28,173 nucleotides of DNA from a virus, in IMG/VR virus record IMGVR_UViG_3300014827_000017, positions 1-28,173 of that record, one strand, 5' to 3'. The notes beneath the pieces were generated by a model. It ran no database searches. It worked only from the letters and a program-made list of their open reading frames with translations, and was not told where the DNA came from. Of this stretch, positions 9,882 to 28,173 are shown piece by piece; the stretch's first letter is position 1; the number at the start of each line of letters is the position of its first letter. A program made the translations under genes and the position numbers.

Positions 9882-9945
9882 AAATTCTTTATTGGTTTGC
9901 GTAGTCTAGGGAGTTGGCACTACCTTGCCGCGTCTCTTCCCCCAC
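9882..9945. other. Divergent intergenic region between holin-like and cargo genes
   Basis: This gap of 64 nt separates two divergently transcribed units. It is AT-richer near the holin start. I see no pair of -35 and -10 boxes that I would call a promoter, though both directions should have one here. Confidence 0.4.
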
Positions 9946-10563
9946 ATGAAATCTCCCCTGTTTGCTTGCTTGTTCGCCGGGCTGTGCGCCTCGGCTTCGG
10001 CTTCCGGCTTCGACTGCTCGATACTCAGCCACATCACCTTCGATCAGCCGTGGCGCGACCTTGATAACTGGTACGCCTATATCGACACGGCGGGAGACGG
10101 CGCATACTCCGTGAGCACGTTCGACTCTCAGGGGTACAGCGGAACGCGGTGGGGGCAGCGAACGATACTGAGCGGGACGGCGGGCGATGGCGTGAACGCA
10201 GGAAGCGCCAGTGGCTCCGTAGAAATCTACACGATCTTCTGGTTTGATTTTGGCATCGAGGGAGGAGCCCTGAGCTTCACGCATCAACGGCTGGCTAACT
10301 ACGCCTATGCTTTGGGAAATGCAGACGGCATGGCGTTCGATTCGATTCTGTTCGATGGTGTCGAGACCAACCGAACGAGCTTCGACGGCCTGCAATTCTG
10401 GCATTCCGTGCAGCTCACGACGCGCGTTGAGGGGTGGGCGGTTGAGAATAACGAGGCCAGCCATGTGCCGGACGGCGGATCGACCGTTGGGCTGCTTTTG
10501 ATTGCGTTGTCTGGATTCGCGATTCATAGGGTTTTATGCCTAGTTCAGAATGTTCAGTTCTAA
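9946..10563 (+). CDS. Secreted protein with VPDSG-CTERM-like sorting signal (cargo gene 1)
   Basis: The ATG at 9946 begins a signal peptide (MKSPLFACLFAGLCASASAS). An in-frame TTG at 9925 is a poorer start. The mature part of about 155 residues is rich in Ser, Gly, Asp and aromatic residues, with no domain I recognise. The C-terminus has HVPDGGSTVGLLLIALSGF followed by AIHR, matching the VPDSG-CTERM plan: a Pro-Asp-containing motif, then a membrane helix. It differs at the end, with only one Arg and ten more residues (VLCLVQNVQF), so sorting could be impaired. Exosortase recognises such tails and links proteins to the cell surface. It is on the plus strand, opposite to its phage neighbours, and 11 nt upstream of a second such gene. 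Confidence 0.7.
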   Translation: MKSPLFACLFAGLCASASASGFDCSILSHITFDQPWRDLDNWYAYIDTAGDGAYSVSTFDSQGYSGTRWGQRTILSGTAGDGVNAGSASGSVEIYTIFWFDFGIEGGALSFTHQRLANYAYALGNADGMAFDSILFDGVETNRTSFDGLQFWHSVQLTTRVEGWAVENNEASHVPDGGSTVGLLLIALSGFAIHRVLCLVQNVQF

Positions 10564-10574
10564 CCCCTGTAAAA

Positions 10575-11120
10575 ATGAAAATCAGAAATATAGTCGCGGG
10601 CCTCGGCCTGCTCGCTTCGGTGTTCGCGTGTTCGACCGCTTCGGCCCTTACTATGTGGCAGTCGCAAACAAGCACGATTGACCAGACCGCGTATATAACG
10701 GCTGTTTATGGAGCATTTGCCACCGACGATCTGAACTCGAACGGGGTAATTACCGCCGATGAAATATCGCAGCACGCTGACGTTCCTTACGGGGCAACGT
10801 TTGCGGGCGTCCGGATTTCGGGCGTAGGCGGCGCACCCGTCGAACTCACATGGGGCAATTTTCAATTGGTTCATGCGGTTTACAATTGGCGTTATGCAGT
10901 CGGCGACTTCACCGGCATTTTTGCGGGAGGTAGCATTGAGTGGTCGGGGGATGCCAGCGGAGGGCTGCTAACCGTAACCGCTGGCGGAAACGACCCAGTA
11001 GCATACGCCACAACCGGCTTTCTGATGCAGCCCATGCCCGACGCCGGGCAAACGGCGGGACTTATCGCCTTCGCTCTTGTGGGGCTCGGCTTGATACGTC
11101 GAAGGCTTTCGACGGCGTAA
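10575..11120 (+). CDS. Secreted protein with EF-hand-like loop and PEP-CTERM-type tail (cargo gene 2)
   Basis: The ATG at 10575 starts a signal peptide (MKIRNIVAGLGLLASVFACS, then TASA). The 181-residue protein contains a calcium-binding-like loop at residues 52-63, DDLNSNGVITADE, with D, N, N, G, I and E in the EF-hand positions. The tail has MPDAGQTAGLIAFALVGLGL followed by IRRRLSTA: a PDxG motif, a membrane helix and an arginine cluster, the arrangement of exosortase (VPDSG/PEP-CTERM) substrates. It lies 11 nt after cargo gene 1, so they probably form one operon, and a plus-strand terminator follows. The mature region does not match a family I know. An in-frame ATG at 10536 overlaps the previous gene and would spoil the signal peptide. 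Confidence 0.75.
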   Translation: MKIRNIVAGLGLLASVFACSTASALTMWQSQTSTIDQTAYITAVYGAFATDDLNSNGVITADEISQHADVPYGATFAGVRISGVGGAPVELTWGNFQLVHAVYNWRYAVGDFTGIFAGGSIEWSGDASGGLLTVTAGGNDPVAYATTGFLMQPMPDAGQTAGLIAFALVGLGLIRRRLSTA

Positions 11121-22695: not shown

Positions 22696-22956
22696 TCAAC
22701 CTCGTTCGACACCGCGCGGCCCCGGGATCTTGCCGAGCAATCGGTGATAGTCCGTGACCTCGTTCTGGATCGCCTCGAACACCTTTGCCGAATCGTCGGG
22801 AGAGAGATTGGCTGTCTCCATGATTCGAAAGAAGCACGCGGCGTATCCAGCCATGAACATACGTTCACTCTCTTGTTTCTGAGTCTGGCTGATCGGGTGC
22901 ATGTGCGGCTCCCAGACAGAGGCGCACAAAGATTTGAAAGCGTTTTGTGCGTTCAT
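22696..22956 (-). CDS. Small helical phage protein, 86 residues
   Basis: The ATG at 22956 (MNAQNAFKSLCASVWEPHMH) overlaps the upstream stop as ATGA; the longer frame is a shadow. The sequence has QKQESERMFMAGYAACFFRI and a C-terminal helix DDSAKVFEAIQNEVTDYHRL. It resembles small phage proteins of the 'y.aGf.a.f......' type, with no known function. It is the last gene of the operon before a terminator. Confidence 0.65.
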   Translation of the reverse strand: MNAQNAFKSLCASVWEPHMHPISQTQKQESERMFMAGYAACFFRIMETANLSPDDSAKVFEAIQNEVTDYHRLLGKIPGPRGVERG

Positions 22957-23318
22957 GGTGAGAGTTTGGTGAGTAGAGCCGCGTTCGCCTGCGCGTCGTG
23001 CAGCTCGCGCTCGGTGCGTGCGTGGAAGTAGCGGATGACCGCGTTTCGGTGATTCCAGAAAACACCCTCCAGCCGATCCAGCGACCCGCACGGACAGTCA
23101 AACACGTGTGACACGCCGTTGAAGTCGCCGACGCTGATCGAGCTGCTCGCGTTGTCCGGGATGTAGAGATCCGGCTTCGCCTTGCGATTCGCTTCGAGCG
23201 CTGCGAGCTCACCGTCATCCATGTTCTCGCCGGTCGCGACGTAGTGCTTGCGGCCACACTGGCACGTCGCGGTCGGTGATCCTCCCCAGCTAAGCATTGC
23301 TTCGAATTCTTTTGTCAT
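22953..23318 (-). CDS. Small zinc-binding-like phage protein
   Basis: The 121-residue product starts MTKEFEAMLSWGGSPTATCQ. It has CQCGRKHYVAT and FDCPCGSLDRLEGVFWNHRN: two C-x-C-G knuckles about 55 residues apart that probably bind one zinc ion. A C-terminal helix (RTERELHDAQANAALLTKL) follows. It is coupled to its neighbours (3-nt gap upstream, ATGA downstream). The family is unknown to me. Confidence 0.65.
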   Translation of the reverse strand: MTKEFEAMLSWGGSPTATCQCGRKHYVATGENMDDGELAALEANRKAKPDLYIPDNASSSISVGDFNGVSHVFDCPCGSLDRLEGVFWNHRNAVIRYFHARTERELHDAQANAALLTKLSP

Positions 23319-23321
23319 AGG

Positions 23322-23678
23322 TCAGAGGGTTTCAGGTTGAACGCGATCAGGAATGGCCGGCAGTGGCATCCACGCTTCAGGCGGACTCACGCGCTGCTCA
23401 CGCGTTCCCCGGGCACCGGTCGTTCGCCAATACGGCGCCGGCCTATTGGCATACTTGTCGTCATCCCATTCCGCGAGCTCGTGGTAGCCTTTGAATGGTG
23501 TTCGGACGAGCACGAGGATTCGTGTTCCATCCCTCGGCGCAGAGTCCATCGGTTGCCAAGGCGGAGGCAACGCGCAGGGCTTTTTCGCGAACAGAAAAGC
23601 GAACTCCGGCCGCGTGAAATGCTCGATGATCTTGGCCGCGACTAGACCGTGAGGATCTTTGGGGTCGAAGTGACTCAC
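23322..23678 (-). CDS. DUF551-like phage protein
   Basis: The GTG at 23678 overlaps the upstream stop as GTGA and gives 118 residues (VSHFDPKDPHGLVAAKIIEH). The core is WQPMDSAPRDGTRILVLVRT, then ELAEWDDDKY, and near the C-terminus PPEAWMPLPAIPD. This 'W..M.sAP.DGt.iLv....W' and 'P.aWMpLP..P' pattern is the DUF551-type domain often found in phage accessory regions, of unknown function. An upstream ATG would add 12 residues but would overlap the preceding gene further. Confidence 0.7.
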   Translation of the reverse strand: MSHFDPKDPHGLVAAKIIEHFTRPEFAFLFAKKPCALPPPWQPMDSAPRDGTRILVLVRTPFKGYHELAEWDDDKYANRPAPYWRTTGARGTREQRVSPPEAWMPLPAIPDRVQPETL

Positions 23679-24073
23679 GTTGGCACCTCCAATCCGCCGG
23701 TCGCATGACACCAAACCCGGCTGTGCGCCATCAGCGCCTCGTCGTTCTTCTTAATCTGCTGCCACAGCCCCTCCGCCCCGGCCCTATGGACGCTGCGCAG
23801 GATCTCATTGTGCCGGGCGCGTATGATGTTGTCGCTCGCGCGTAGCGCCGTCTCCAACGCCTCGATTCGGGCATGCAGCGTCGCCAGTTCGGCGACGTCC
23901 GCCGTTCGCTCTTTGTCTTTGGCGATGATCACGCGGGCGGACATTGCCAAGCCGTGCGTGGCCTCGATCAACTCGCGTTCGATCTTCTCGGCGAAGTCGA
24001 GGCATTCATGCGCCCAAAGGGCAACGAGTGGGACGCGCGCCCGCAGCCCGTCTGTTCGTGGTGTGCCGCTCAT
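23675..24073 (-). CDS. Coiled-coil phage accessory protein
   Basis: The ATG at 24073 (MSGTPRTDGLRARVPLVALW) overlaps the upstream stop as ATGA and gives 132 residues. The 'TPRTD' start followed by helices (CLDFAEKIERELIEATHGLA) is common in phage accessory proteins of unknown function. A long helix AELATLHARIEALETALRAS suggests a coiled coil. Confidence 0.65.
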   Translation of the reverse strand: MSGTPRTDGLRARVPLVALWAHECLDFAEKIERELIEATHGLAMSARVIIAKDKERTADVAELATLHARIEALETALRASDNIIRARHNEILRSVHRAGAEGLWQQIKKNDEALMAHSRVWCHATGGLEVPT

Positions 24074-24405
24074 GGCGTGGCCTTTCGCGCGGCGGAGATC
24101 GTCAAGCGAGCCACCTCGGTCGCGAGTTTGTCGGCACTGTGACACGCAACCTTGTACTGGCCCGCCCAACTTTCCGCGGCTTCGGTTGCCCGATCCGCCC
24201 GTGCTTTCTCTTCGGCGTATGCGTCGAGGCGTTGGGATGACCGCTCACCGATTTCCCTGATGAAGTCTTCGGTCGAGTAGTCGCCTTCCAGCACGCTATG
24301 GCGCTGTGCGAGATGGTAGAGACTGCTCAGCCGGCCATACGCCTCGGCCAGAGCGCCTCCGTTCCAGGCTCGTTTGTACGCCTCGACGAATTGGACCGCG
24401 CTCAT
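24070..24405 (-). CDS. Helical phage accessory protein, 111 residues
   Basis: The ATG at 24405 (MSAVQFVEAYKRAWNGGALA) overlaps the upstream stop as ATGA. The middle has YSTEDFIREIGERSSQRLDA, and the C-terminal helix is Ala/Arg/Glu-rich (EEKARADRATEAAESWAGQY). It may form a coiled coil. No function can be given. Confidence 0.65.
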   Translation of the reverse strand: MSAVQFVEAYKRAWNGGALAEAYGRLSSLYHLAQRHSVLEGDYSTEDFIREIGERSSQRLDAYAEEKARADRATEAAESWAGQYKVACHSADKLATEVARLTISAARKATP

Positions 24406-25652
24406 GCGGTGTCCTTTTCGCTTCTCGTACGTAATGGGTTGTACTCCACGAAGCCGAGCAACGCATCGCCGGAAAAGGTATCCACGATCGACGCGGCGAC
24501 CTTCCGTCCGGTCAGAGCCTCGCAAATTCCGTTGATCAGACCGATCGGGCGAAGGGAGAAACCTACACCGGCGTCATCCACATAGCGAACCTGAATGGTC
24601 GGATGATTCGCCAGTACTTCGTTACAAGAAACACCCTTGTTCAGCAGCTCCATCACCGCCCGCGAATCGGCTTTGCACGCCTCGTTGAGTACACGAAGGA
24701 ACGAGTCAAACGTATCGGCAGCGGGTCGATTCCGTTCGATTTTCGCCGCGTCTTCTAGGTAGCGAATGCGACCGCGTTGGCGCTCGATCTTTGCCCGCAG
24801 TTCGTCGTTCACCTTCCGTTCGGTCTGCAACTTCACGTCGTAGATGGTGGACTCAGTAATGGCCAACGCCTGACGGTTGTTGGCAGCCTCGACCTGCATG
24901 GCGATGTGCTCTTCGAGTGAGCAGAGGTCACGGCGCCAGTCCTTCTCATCGTGCACGTAGCGGAATCGCTCACACAGCCGGGCGTGGAATGACTTGAACA
25001 TGCCCAAAATAGCTTGGGCGTCGTTCTCTCGCTCGGCGGAACGTTGCATCATTGCGGCCACGTCCGCGAGTGGGAATGGCTCATATCCCTCCTTACATGA
25101 AGCGATCATCGGGCTCGTGATTCCGCACTTCTTATCCGCCAGCGGCGCGCCCGGTCCGGGCGCCACGACGTTGCAGCCGGTCAACTCCTTCAGCGCCGTC
25201 GCCCATTGGGCATGTTTTTGCGTCCCTCGGAAGTGCGCATGGTTGTCGCCGTAGGCTCGGCAGAGCGCGAATCCCATCTCCCATGCGAGGCGCAGGAGAT
25301 CCTCGTTAACGATACGCGCGGGCACCACGTCCGCAACCGCAGGTTCGCCGGCGGGACAAACGCGAAGCATATCCGCATGCGTCCGCAGCCGCCGCGGGCA
25401 GCCGTAGAGCACGAGCGCTCGGATCGCCAGCGCCGCACACTTGCGCAGCTCGTGGAGCGCCCTGTCGCCGGAGTGATACACATACGCGCCACGCGCGATC
25501 ATCACCTGATCTTCGAGCGTCAGGATTTGGCCCTGCACTCCGTTGTCTTTGGCATCGGCGCGGCTCGTTCCGGCCATGCGGTTCTGGTGGGCGAGCTCTT
25601 CGTTCAGAGCTTCGATGACGCTGGGCGTCAGTTGTACGTTCACAGTGTCCAT
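24402..25652 (-). CDS. Large accessory protein with coiled coil, first gene of operon
   Basis: This 416-residue protein starts MDTVNVQLTPSVIEALNEEL. Residues about 40-100 are helical with ARGAYVYHSGDRALHELRKC (a small conserved-looking phage segment). The centre (LADVAAMMQRSAERENDAQA) and the region around KLQTERKVNDELRAKIERQR are helical and coiled-coil-like. The C-terminal third has IQVRYVDDAGVGFSLRPIGL and TGRKVAASIVDTFSGDALLG. I do not recognise a family for the whole. It opens a six-gene operon whose members are joined by ATGA/GTGA overlaps or a 3-nt gap. It has a TTTACA element and a GAAC leader upstream. Confidence 0.65.
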   Translation of the reverse strand: MDTVNVQLTPSVIEALNEELAHQNRMAGTSRADAKDNGVQGQILTLEDQVMIARGAYVYHSGDRALHELRKCAALAIRALVLYGCPRRLRTHADMLRVCPAGEPAVADVVPARIVNEDLLRLAWEMGFALCRAYGDNHAHFRGTQKHAQWATALKELTGCNVVAPGPGAPLADKKCGITSPMIASCKEGYEPFPLADVAAMMQRSAERENDAQAILGMFKSFHARLCERFRYVHDEKDWRRDLCSLEEHIAMQVEAANNRQALAITESTIYDVKLQTERKVNDELRAKIERQRGRIRYLEDAAKIERNRPAADTFDSFLRVLNEACKADSRAVMELLNKGVSCNEVLANHPTIQVRYVDDAGVGFSLRPIGLINGICEALTGRKVAASIVDTFSGDALLGFVEYNPLRTRSEKDTA

Positions 25653-25656
25653 AATC

Positions 25657-25680
25657 AGTTCGGGTTCAATTCGGGTTAAC
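25657..25680 (-). promoter_or_regulatory. GAAC leader of the accessory operon
   Basis: The minus strand reads AACCCGAATTGAACCCGAAC, then TGATT and the ATG at 25652. The pattern GAATTGAACC is also found before the genes at 2118 and 5169. Confidence 0.65.
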
Positions 25681-25704
25681 CAACACCAACAGGAAACCGA
25701 ACGA

Positions 25705-25733
25705 GATCAGAGGACGCGCTAAATGTAAAGATA
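25705..25733 (-). promoter_or_regulatory. Putative promoter-like TTTACA element before the accessory operon
   Basis: The minus strand reads ATCTTTACATTTAGC in a region of about 180 nt between the large terminase stop and the operon. It resembles the two TTTACA elements at 18217 and 19351, but the downstream box is weaker (TCTCGT at 17 nt). Confidence 0.3.
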
Positions 25734-25836
25734 GAATGCGAGCACGAACAAATATCGTGTATGTAATTCCGTGCGGTGGCGCCCTGCCATTTTTCTCCTA
25801 TGAAGCCGCAAAACGCATGATTTCATAACTAACGAA
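25734..25836 (-). other. Gap after the large terminase gene
   Basis: This part of the 184-nt gap (25653-25836) is AT-richer than its surroundings and includes a short AGGAGA near 25797 with no start codon at a useful distance. I see no terminator hairpin. Confidence 0.4.
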
Positions 25837-27891
25837 TCACGCCATGAGCAGCACGTCATCATTCGACGCCATTTCCCACAACACCGTCACCGCGTCCACT
25901 TGGTCATCGTGCGTGCAGTTCGGGAACTGGCGGAGTTCGTCGAGGAAATCCTGATTCCACAGCCCCTCGACGATAAACAAATTGTCGGCCGCGATCGTCG
26001 CCAGCCACGGCAGAGCACGCGTCTGCTTGTCCGCCGCCGGACGGTAGTCCTGCACGATCGCACGGCCAACCAGCGTTTCACGCAACTCCTGCGCTGCCAC
26101 TTCCCAGCCTCTCACCGCCTCGATGCCAACACGTCCAACATTGTCCACGTTCACCGCGTAGTTCGTAATGGTCTTCTTTTGGTCGGGCCACGCGCGTTTG
26201 TCCCGGTCGATGTGAACGATGTAGAGCTGCCTGAGCTCGACTTCTTCGCCGTTGTCCAGCTTGCGTTTCACCGTCCGAACACCGCCGTACACACCCACCG
26301 AGTAATCGGCCGCGGTCTTGATACTGATCGCCAAATCCCATCCGCGCATCAGCTCCATGTCCGCCGGCACTTCGCTGCGCTTGATCTTCCGGACCCTGTT
26401 CACGTCGCACAAATTGCCGTCCGGTGGGTTCGGCCGCTGCTGGTACTGCGCATTCCACTCGAATGGTCCAACGATCAGCCGGCGTGCCTGTAGCTTGCCA
26501 ACCGTCCAACGCTCCGGCCACAACGCCTCACCGGCCTTGCGGTGCATCGGGTCGGTCTCCGGGTTCTCGCAGATTGCCTCCATGTTCACGAGCTCGAACA
26601 CCTCTTCAGGGAAACCCGCATCCTCCAGCTCCTTCACGCGCTTCGGATCTTTCAGCCGGCCGATCAAATCGTCTTCGTGCCAACGCGTCTGGATCACGAT
26701 CACCACGCCGTCAGGGCTCAGACGGTTGACCACCGTGCCAGTGAACCAATTCCACACCTCGTCGCGCCGCGCCTGACTGTTCGCCTCTGCGCGATTCTTG
26801 ATCGGGTCGTCGATTATGAAGCAATTATGAGTGAGGATTCCATTAGCGAAGAAGTTCTCAGTTCCTTCAACCTGAAGATTGAACACATCGGTGTCGCGGT
26901 ATATTCGCTCAACCATGGCCACAGAATCACTGACCGTTTGGATTTCTGAGCAGCATGGAATTGCGTGTGACATTTCAGACAGAGCGTCACGAGGTTCGTT
27001 GGTCTGTGATCCGTCGGATCTAGATTGTTCGAGCAGTAGAATTCCATTAGCCCTCGCTTCAGATGCTTGTGCATCTCGTGCGGTTTTCTTGTCATCGGTT
27101 TTCGGCATCGCGAGCACGAGACGATCACCGGGGGCAAGTTCCATCGCCCGCGTGTATTCTTTTCCCGTGAAGAAAGGATGCTCTCCCGTAGCCTCAACCA
27201 CTCGTCCAGAGGCAGTGCTAATTCTATAGATGGTCGCAGCTCGTCGAAAAGCAGTTGCTCTAACACGCCTCCAACACAGTCCTTCGGGTTCATGACTATA
27301 TGATAACACATAAACGTCGCGTTGCGATATGTTTATATCCGAAATTGGGATGTTACCCTCGCTCGTTGTAATGAGCGTATCTGGTGTTAAACAATCTGCG
27401 CCTCTTCCGACACCGCCACCGCCGACGCCGGTCGCGAAGTACGCGCCGCCGTGAACCGTGCGCCAGAGCTTCGTCGTGTCGTGCGTTACGTCGATGACCT
27501 GCTCAGGAAAGAATCGCCGGCACCGTGCGCTGTTGAGCACGGCCTTGGTCTGGATCGAAAACTCTTCCGAGAGCTCAGCCGTGTAGCCGGCCTGGATGAT
27601 TTCAAGCGCCATCTTCCGCGCGGCGGATTTGATATGTGCCCACGCAGGGAACATGACCGAAGTCGTGCGCGACTTGCCGTGACGCGGAGGAAACGAAATC
27701 GCCAGCCGCTTGATCTTTCCCGTGTAGCAGTCTTCCAGCTTCCGGCTCAGCAGCTCGTGACACGCGCCCGCGCGATACTTCGGATCGACCAATTCGGAGA
27801 ATGCCGCCAGCGAATTGAGCGCCCCGTCCTTTAGCAGAAACTCCTGCTCACGCTGGAGCGTCTGCGGGTCGGTTGCGCTGGATACGCTCAT
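25837..27891 (-). CDS. terL: Terminase large subunit, interrupted by an intein
   Basis: The 684-residue frame is an ATPase-nuclease terminase once the intein (residues 167-356) is removed, leaving 494 residues. The ATPase part has the Walker A-like FPPRHGKS at 67-74. The Walker B CFIIDDP at 357-363 starts exactly after the intein. The coupling motif is VIQTRWHEDDL at 399-409. The RNase H-like nuclease part has RGWDLAIS (D519), VGIEAVRGW (E591) and CTHDDQVDA near 659-667, the usual acidic residues. It drives ATP-dependent DNA packaging at the portal and cuts concatemers. The ATG at 27891 lies inside the end of the small terminase gene (44-nt overlap). Activity needs protein splicing, because the intein splits the Walker B region. 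Confidence 0.92.
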   Translation of the reverse strand: MSVSSATDPQTLQREQEFLLKDGALNSLAAFSELVDPKYRAGACHELLSRKLEDCYTGKIKRLAISFPPRHGKSRTTSVMFPAWAHIKSAARKMALEIIQAGYTAELSEEFSIQTKAVLNSARCRRFFPEQVIDVTHDTTKLWRTVHGGAYFATGVGGGGVGRGADCLTPDTLITTSEGNIPISDINISQRDVYVLSYSHEPEGLCWRRVRATAFRRAATIYRISTASGRVVEATGEHPFFTGKEYTRAMELAPGDRLVLAMPKTDDKKTARDAQASEARANGILLLEQSRSDGSQTNEPRDALSEMSHAIPCCSEIQTVSDSVAMVERIYRDTDVFNLQVEGTENFFANGILTHNCFIIDDPIKNRAEANSQARRDEVWNWFTGTVVNRLSPDGVVIVIQTRWHEDDLIGRLKDPKRVKELEDAGFPEEVFELVNMEAICENPETDPMHRKAGEALWPERWTVGKLQARRLIVGPFEWNAQYQQRPNPPDGNLCDVNRVRKIKRSEVPADMELMRGWDLAISIKTAADYSVGVYGGVRTVKRKLDNGEEVELRQLYIVHIDRDKRAWPDQKKTITNYAVNVDNVGRVGIEAVRGWEVAAQELRETLVGRAIVQDYRPAADKQTRALPWLATIAADNLFIVEGLWNQDFLDELRQFPNCTHDDQVDAVTVLWEMASNDDVLLMA
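26814..27311 (-). CDS. HNH-endonuclease-like ORF, +1 frame, nested in the intein
   Basis: In the +1 frame relative to the terminase, a 165-codon ORF (ATG at 27311) contains CSRC (Cys66, Cys69), EFYCSNNLDP, then TDHRPTNLVTLCLKCHTQFH. DH..x..NL..LC..CH is the HNH pattern (D101-H102, N106, H115), and the CxxC pairs (66/69 and 111/114) could bind zinc. The core (27116-26955) lies exactly between the two halves of the intein's Hint domain, where homing endonucleases normally sit, but out of frame. The ORF ends just past the splice junction. The DH-to-N loop is short, and NNL stands where HHL is common, so the catalytic His may be altered. It could be an overprinted gene or the remnant of two compensating frameshifts. 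No ribosome binding site is seen at 27311, so expression is unproven. Confidence 0.45.
   Translation of the reverse strand: MCYHIVMNPKDCVGGVLEQLLFDELRPSIELALPLDEWLRLRESILSSREKNTRGRWNLPPVIVSCSRCRKPMTRKPHEMHKHLKRGLMEFYCSNNLDPTDHRPTNLVTLCLKCHTQFHAAQKSKRSVILWPWLSEYTATPMCSIFRLKELRTSSLMESSLIIAS
26824..27393 (-). mobile_element. Intein in the large terminase, inserted at the Walker B motif
   Basis: In the terminase frame, 190 residues between GVGRGAD and CFIIDDP look like an intein. They start with Cys (CLTPDTLITTSEG, block A), contain VVEATGEHPFFTG (block B, TxxH), PGDRLVLA (end of the N-part), and VFNLQVEGTENFFANGILTH then Asn (block F/G). They are followed by Cys as the +1 residue. First Cys, TxxH, His-Asn end and Cys+1 are all present, so splicing should work. 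The His usual in block F (as in 'THNFF') is Glu here. No LAGLIDADG or HNH is in frame; the linker of about 65 residues between the halves is low-complexity-like, while the +1 frame of the same DNA encodes an HNH pattern. Confidence 0.88.
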
Positions 27892-28173
27892 AGTGTCGTT
27901 TCAAAAGATCGTCCTTCTCTATGTCGGTCATCCCGGTCGTATCCGTGGTCTCGGTCTGGATCGGCGCACCGTTCGGGCCGGAGTGCTCCGCCTTCACGAA
28001 GTTGCGCTGCCCCCACTTGTCCGGGTTCTTCCGCTCAAGGCGCCACGCCGCGGCCTGCCAGCTTTTGACGCTGGCTTTCTTGATCGTCACCACGTCGGAC
28101 AGGTCCGCTTGTTCGCCGGCCTGGACCAGGTCGAGGACTCCCAGAGCGCATACGAGCGAGGCCCTGCCGCTAG
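27848..28173 (-). CDS. Small terminase subunit-like protein, N-terminus beyond the right edge
   Basis: The minus strand is open from the window edge to a stop at 27848. The visible 107 residues include ALGVLDLVQAGEQADLSDVV, KASVKSWQAAAWRLERKNPD and KWGQRN. The phrase WxxAAWRLERxxPxKWG is characteristic of small terminase and similar DNA-packaging proteins, which recognise the packaging site. The start is not in the window; a GTG at 28093 opens the frame but lies inside conserved-looking sequence, so it is probably not the real start. The gene overlaps the large terminase start by 44 nt, a normal arrangement. Confidence 0.75.
   Translation of the reverse strand, partial: SGRASLVCALGVLDLVQAGEQADLSDVVTIKKASVKSWQAAAWRLERKNPDKWGQRNFVKAEHSGPNGAPIQTETTDTTGMTDIEKDDLLKRHYERIQRNRPADAPA

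Follow-up and report, generated by a model that had tools for sequence, protein, structure and literature searches.

The closest precedent for the arrangement reported here appears to be the methylase insertion of ShiLan (Arsenault et al., 2025; PMC11855218), where the insertion has no stops in the host frame and likewise encodes, in a different frame, a zinc-finger-flanked HNH nuclease. Its authors reported no intein splicing domain and proposed that the insertion stays in the methylase; homing was inferred, as it is here, and the translation of the nuclease is likewise unexplained. While the ShiLan nuclease was described as lying in the 'third frame' (PMC11855218), the nucleases of the terminase inteins described below are always in the +1 frame. 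In phage Bipolar, a methylase match has its HNH in the +2 frame, as judged by coordinates. A ShiLan-like HNH was also seen in a metagenomic virus (L155, 4001-4609), where it lies in a DNA methylase insertion without an intein, again in the +2 frame.

The canonical LAGLIDADG inteins, including the TerL inteins of mycobacteriophages (Kelley et al., 2016; PMC5050341), share with the present ones the type of site in the terminase ATPase domain, the blocks A, B, F and G, and a nuclease located between blocks B and F. However, they have an in-frame nuclease of the LAGLIDADG type (the motifs are present in the two TerL inteins assayed for cleavage), whereas here the nuclease is of the HNH or of another type and in an overlapping frame. 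An HNH nuclease associated with an intein is attributed to Dalgaard et al. (1997), as cited in PMC5050341. The closest sequence families of the nested nuclease are free-standing phage HNH homing endonucleases (phrog_1271, phrog_119 and phrog_144). In the HNH inteins just mentioned, the nuclease is reportedly in frame with the intein; HNH and intein are thus shared with the terminase inteins, but the frame differs. An out-of-frame endonuclease in a splicing intein was not found in the open-access literature, where the nearest accounts are the ShiLan paper and the genome note of phage Applejack. The arrangement therefore appears to be undescribed for inteins; the earlier note on this DNA likewise knew of no described case.

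The window, i.e. the whole stretch of 28,173 nucleotides analysed (IMG/VR virus record IMGVR_UViG_3300014827_000017), very probably holds, on the basis of sequence comparison, a decayed terminase intein of a class that is widespread in phages, in which the mobility nuclease is overprinted as a separate gene in the +1 frame. The large terminase gene (25837-27891, minus strand) encodes a precursor of 684 residues with terminase and intein domains. Profile matches of the terminase were to phrog_38 (E 5e-86) and Terminase_6C, and its P-loop, RHGKS, lies at 27684-27670 (minus strand). The N-extein (27891-27394) and the C-extein (26823-25837, starting with CFIIDDP; both on the minus strand) enclose an intein of 190 residues in the terminase frame (26824-27393, minus strand; residues 167-356 of the precursor), which runs from Cys1 to Asn190 and is followed by Cys+1.

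The intein was recognized in this frame by the profiles Pfam Intein_splicing (E 2.2e-16), TIGR01445 (intein_Nterm) and TIGR01443 (intein_Cterm). All the residues of a class 1 intein were found, namely Cys1, the T-x-x-H of block B (VEATGEH), the penultimate His, the terminal Asn and Cys+1, so that blocks A, B, F and G are each present with the required nucleophile, TxxH, His-Asn and +1 residue. Block B (GRVVEATGEHPFF) is located at 27169-27207, and blocks F and G (RDTDVFNLQVEGTENFFANGILTHN, read as VFNLQVEGTENFFANGILTHN) at 26824-26898, all on the minus strand. In the AlphaFold2 model, the splicing domain has a Hint fold with pLDDT mostly 89-98 per 10-residue block, while most of residues 104-143, which lie under the HNH frame, are below 50; Foldseek matched the model to the Ssp DnaB mini-intein with E 6.8e-09, in keeping with the Hint fold. 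In addition, the intein-less terminase of L004 (52% identical) provides the empty site, with the insert absent between AD and the IDDP motif, and comparison with it shows a precise insertion. These data confirm that the terminase frame contains a complete class-1-type intein, as had been read earlier from blocks A, B and F/G. From its sequence, the intein should be splicing-competent.

The overlapping ORF in the +1 frame (26814-27311, minus strand) counts 165 residues from the ATG at 27311, with a second ATG at 27293, and is an internally deleted remnant of an HNH gene. In order, it encodes a first zinc knuckle, CSRC (27105-27116; this CxxC is invariant in the relatives), its partner YCS at 27038, and NLDPTDHRPTNLVTLCLKCH (26967-27026), which is the C-terminal half of the HNH motif still left. 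The sequence WPWLSEY (26901-26921), like the preceding elements on the minus strand, is conserved after the HNH in the close relatives L067, L014, L084 and L024. The HNH sequence that the earlier note had placed in the +1 frame of the intein linker was recovered by several PHROG HNH families, weakly (best E 3.7e-05), and Pfam HNH on this frame alone remained below cut-off (E 0.022), because part of the domain is deleted. When aligned to L039, L067, L097 and others, the protein reaches YCSN and picks up again at NLDPT (junction at 27026-27038, minus strand), with about 144 codons absent compared with L039.

This deletion took away the catalytic His-His together with the middle zinc knuckles. 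The 'DH' noted earlier is not the catalytic pair but aligns to the 'NN' of the HHxDxxxxNN of the relatives. An active nuclease in the window is not supported, since the copy is without the catalytic His-His and most of the zinc knuckles of an HNH homing endonuclease. Since the deletion of about 144 codons is in phase, the intein frame survives; splicing is therefore predicted to work, and cutting is not. The window copy is thus predicted to be a decayed remnant, with a dead nuclease and a functional intein. By analogy, it resembles the usual late stage of the homing cycle, here in an overlapping gene. The GCCCCCG run at 27135-27129, once suspected as the site of an old indel or of slippage, reads as LAPGD or LPPV depending on the frame, and relatives have both; a slip-site role was therefore rejected, and neither event needs to be invoked there.

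Relatives were sought in viral and genome contigs by scanning for DNA encoding HNC-x-IIDDP, the sequence with which a Cys+1 intein ends at this position of the terminase. The scan returned 79 viral and 9 genome loci, among which one genome locus (L096) is a chance match to the pattern and several contigs end within the intein. The genome contigs with matches are labelled Anaerolineaceae, Actinobacteria OV450, Methanosaeta and Fictibacillus, i.e. bacteria and an archaeon. Where Cys1 could be located, full-length inteins at the site comprise about 316-390 residues in the terminase frame, and in nearly all of them the +1 frame contains the NL..LC..CH motif, 51-68 codons upstream of the intein end. 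No in-frame HNH was present among the 88 site-pattern loci; in the homologous terminase inteins compared, the HNH is always out of frame, in +1. The stops or random sequence looked for in the +1 frame of the relatives were absent, so that the overprinting reading stands.

With the isolated Gordonia phage Clown (gene 5) and Synechococcus phage S-EIV1 (terminase) added, both of which are annotated as terminase only in their records, the +1 nuclease was found in 68 loci, two of which are the window's own sequence. These form 51 clusters at 90% identity, window included. Besides the window, 66 loci in 50 clusters below 90% identity have the same +1 frame, nearly always with zinc knuckles and an HNH. 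Shorter inteins (137-145 residues) at the same site have lost the +1 HNH; in the 141-residue mini-intein of L085, the +1 frame retains only the two ends of the nuclease around a gap, and this copy would represent an end-point of the deletion series.

A second search, with the nuclease alignment as query and no site pattern, gave best matches that were nearly all nested in +1 in terminase inteins, and weaker ones that were mostly free-standing; most of L146-L181 are such free-standing nuclease loci. It also revealed +1-nested HNH sequences in inteins of a different terminase-like ATPase family (L145, 776-1045; L157, 4001-4261), whose C-exteins differ (HNCDILIRDEA and HNCDESAKI). A terminase-like protein at L055 has an insert that ends in HNC-IIDDP and looks like an intein with an in-frame LAGLIDADG-type nuclease, which would make it a useful positive control. 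As regards the ShiLan element, the terminase family shares the out-of-frame HNH in a stop-free insertion, but its authors found no support for an intein in the ShiLan insertion, whereas here an intein splicing domain is present, and the bona fide intein occurs in very diverse phages.

The intact +1 HNH proteins are roughly 230-380 residues long, with a variable N-terminus and several CxxC...CxxC knuckles followed by the HNH. Residues H229, H230, N238, N242, C247 and H251 are invariant in all 13 aligned nucleases, and the CxxC ligands are kept too; the catalytic His, the Asn, the His and the zinc ligands of an HNH beta-beta-alpha-metal nuclease are thus all in place. Pfam HNH or HNH_3 was above cut-off in five of the six nucleases tested, the sixth belonging to the unrelated L019 class (see below), and the closest PHROG family is phrog_1271 (E 1.6e-28). 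The nuclease model matched solved HNH structures weakly (Foldseek E 0.016), and therefore the identification as HNH rests on sequence profiles. Alignment scores of nucleases and exteins are weakly correlated (0.29).

Selection on the two frames was studied by synonymous shuffling in the 51 non-redundant loci (window included; 13,359 overlapping codons). When the synonymous codons of the nuclease were shuffled, 516.9 stops were expected in the host (terminase) frame and none was observed; when those of the terminase were shuffled, 236.8 were expected in the nuclease frame and again none was observed, although this second result partly follows from the choice of open ORFs. The third frame conforms to expectation, with 747 stops against 685/660 expected. 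In contrast with the nested nucleases, 28 free-standing HNH relatives, which are ordinary genes, showed no avoidance of stops in the terminase-equivalent frame (548 observed, 570.7 expected).

Substitutions at terminase codon positions 1/2/3 numbered 1720/1077/971 in the nuclease core (16 pairs), as opposed to 1035/789/2208 in the C-extein (14 of the 16 pairs), with a chi-square of 688 for the contrast. Changes in the overlap concentrate at nuclease codon position 3, those in the C-extein at terminase position 3; the L023-L042 pair is 81% identical in the nuclease frame and 54% in the terminase frame. The pattern in the overlap therefore indicates that the nuclease frame is constrained, whereas the main demand on the terminase frame is that it stay open. 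Taken at family level, these data are strong evidence that both frames are maintained by selection.

In the intact members, translation of the terminase frame would give the precursor, from which the intein would be removed by its Hint domain; in this frame, the stretch over the nuclease would be a low-constraint, stop-free filler loop. The same DNA in the +1 frame would give the zinc-knuckle and HNH protein, a putative homing endonuclease expected to cut intein-less terminase genes. Its translation most likely begins at an ATG inside the N-terminal part of the intein. In many members the first ATG comes soon after the last +1-frame stop, and in some immediately after it. Shine-Dalgarno-like matches of at least 5 nt precede the start in 9 of 49 cases, compared with 58 of 1529 control ATGs (p 1.4e-4). 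In about 60% of the members, window included, no Shine-Dalgarno motif of at least 4 nt precedes the presumed start; initiation may therefore be different there, or the wrong start may have been assigned.

Programmed +1 frameshifting from the N-terminal part of the intein, by which the N-terminal splicing half would be fused to the nuclease, would fit the single fixed frame of the nuclease and the lack of a recognizable ribosome-binding site at every locus. It is nevertheless unlikely, because a +1 stop lies one codon before the ATG in several relatives (L014, L021, L022, L027, L061, L067, L069 and L100) and Shine-Dalgarno-like motifs are enriched before the start; moreover, the ATG and the sequence downstream are conserved in the group L012, L017, L023, L027, L041, L075 and L088. 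Between the internal start and the frameshifting that the earlier note had left as alternatives, internal ATG initiation is thus favoured, and we regard it as likely from the pre-ATG stops and the motif enrichment.

As for the window copy itself, two other IMG/VR records (L002 and L003) are 100% identical to it over 22840-28110. Three records identical at the locus cannot owe the arrangement to a sequencing or indel error of a single assembly, and sequencing error as its cause is ruled out. The last 63 bases of the window (28111-28173) are unmatched in L002 and L003, which continue differently, and are possibly a recombinant or misassembled contig end.

The truncated +1 protein might still be expressed with another role, e.g. 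DNA binding via the remaining zinc knuckle. The frame is still open for 165 codons, and identically so in three records; but 1.95 stops would be expected in it against none present (p about 0.07), and with openness so near to chance nothing shows continued maintenance. In addition, the catalytic core and most knuckles are deleted, and the HNH piece of the window, used as a query against viral contigs, returned only the two identical records and no diverged close relative of the truncated form. Such a use of the protein is therefore quite improbable.

Compensating indels are scarcely credible. Under this reading, a first indel, in this phage alone, would have displaced an in-frame HNH and a second one put the frame right again, with a dead remnant as the result. 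The window copy is indeed a dead remnant, and two flanking indels would look so in a single genome; but another 50 non-redundant clusters, in which the nuclease is nearly always intact, show the same +1 relation, and in-frame HNH sequences are missing from the 88 site-pattern loci. Of the two readings originally offered, the separate overprinted gene is the one that is right for the family.

Two further genes of the window (9925-10563 and 10536-11120, plus strand), running opposite to most of its long phage ORFs, each encode a protein that carries a VPDSG-CTERM sorting signal (TIGR03778; above cut-off in one, with E 4.6e-06, and below it in the other, with E 0.04). Such signals are typically found in Verrucomicrobia, and may thus give a hint of the host of the phage.

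The frame of the overprinted nuclease was always +1 in the terminase inteins found. In this relation, a stop arises in the terminase frame only where a nuclease codon ending in T precedes AA, AG or GA, and a change from T to C at the third position is always synonymous, so that it removes such stops. In the opposite relation, a stop is unavoidable wherever Met precedes I, M, T, N or K, and at least one such pair is present in 44 of the 51 nucleases. The frame is probably fixed because only a host frame at -1 allows synonymous T-to-C changes to clear every host stop.

In L019, L060 and L066, and also in L047, the intein at this terminase site has a nuclease of a different class, likewise nested in +1. 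It is of the phrog_3377/374 type (phrog_3377, E 4.7e-53), with a YGGRGIKVCERW...NCRW core. The occurrence of an unrelated nuclease in L019, L060 and L066, at the same site and in the same frame, suggests a second independent origin, by which the arrangement would have arisen more than once, and it fits the account based on stop removal. With somewhat less assurance than for an internal start, we consider it probable that dual-coding inteins are a general class, with a complete homing endonuclease in the +1 frame of the intein loop translated from an internal start, more than one origin, and a frame fixed by synonymous stop removal.

Inteins without a recognizable in-frame endonuclease are readily mistaken for mini-inteins, or their linker is taken to be of an unknown kind. 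In many such terminase inteins, an intact nuclease lies in the other frame and escapes annotation, as in Clown gene 5 and S-EIV1. Because the nuclease is decoupled from the splicing domain, each of the two can decay separately. The 51 non-redundant pairs in one frame relation represent a large natural set of selected overlapping genes. The terminase inteins also supply a splicing counterpart of the ShiLan element, whose toleration by the host gene had been unexplained, and translation of the nested frame becomes directly testable in an isolated phage.
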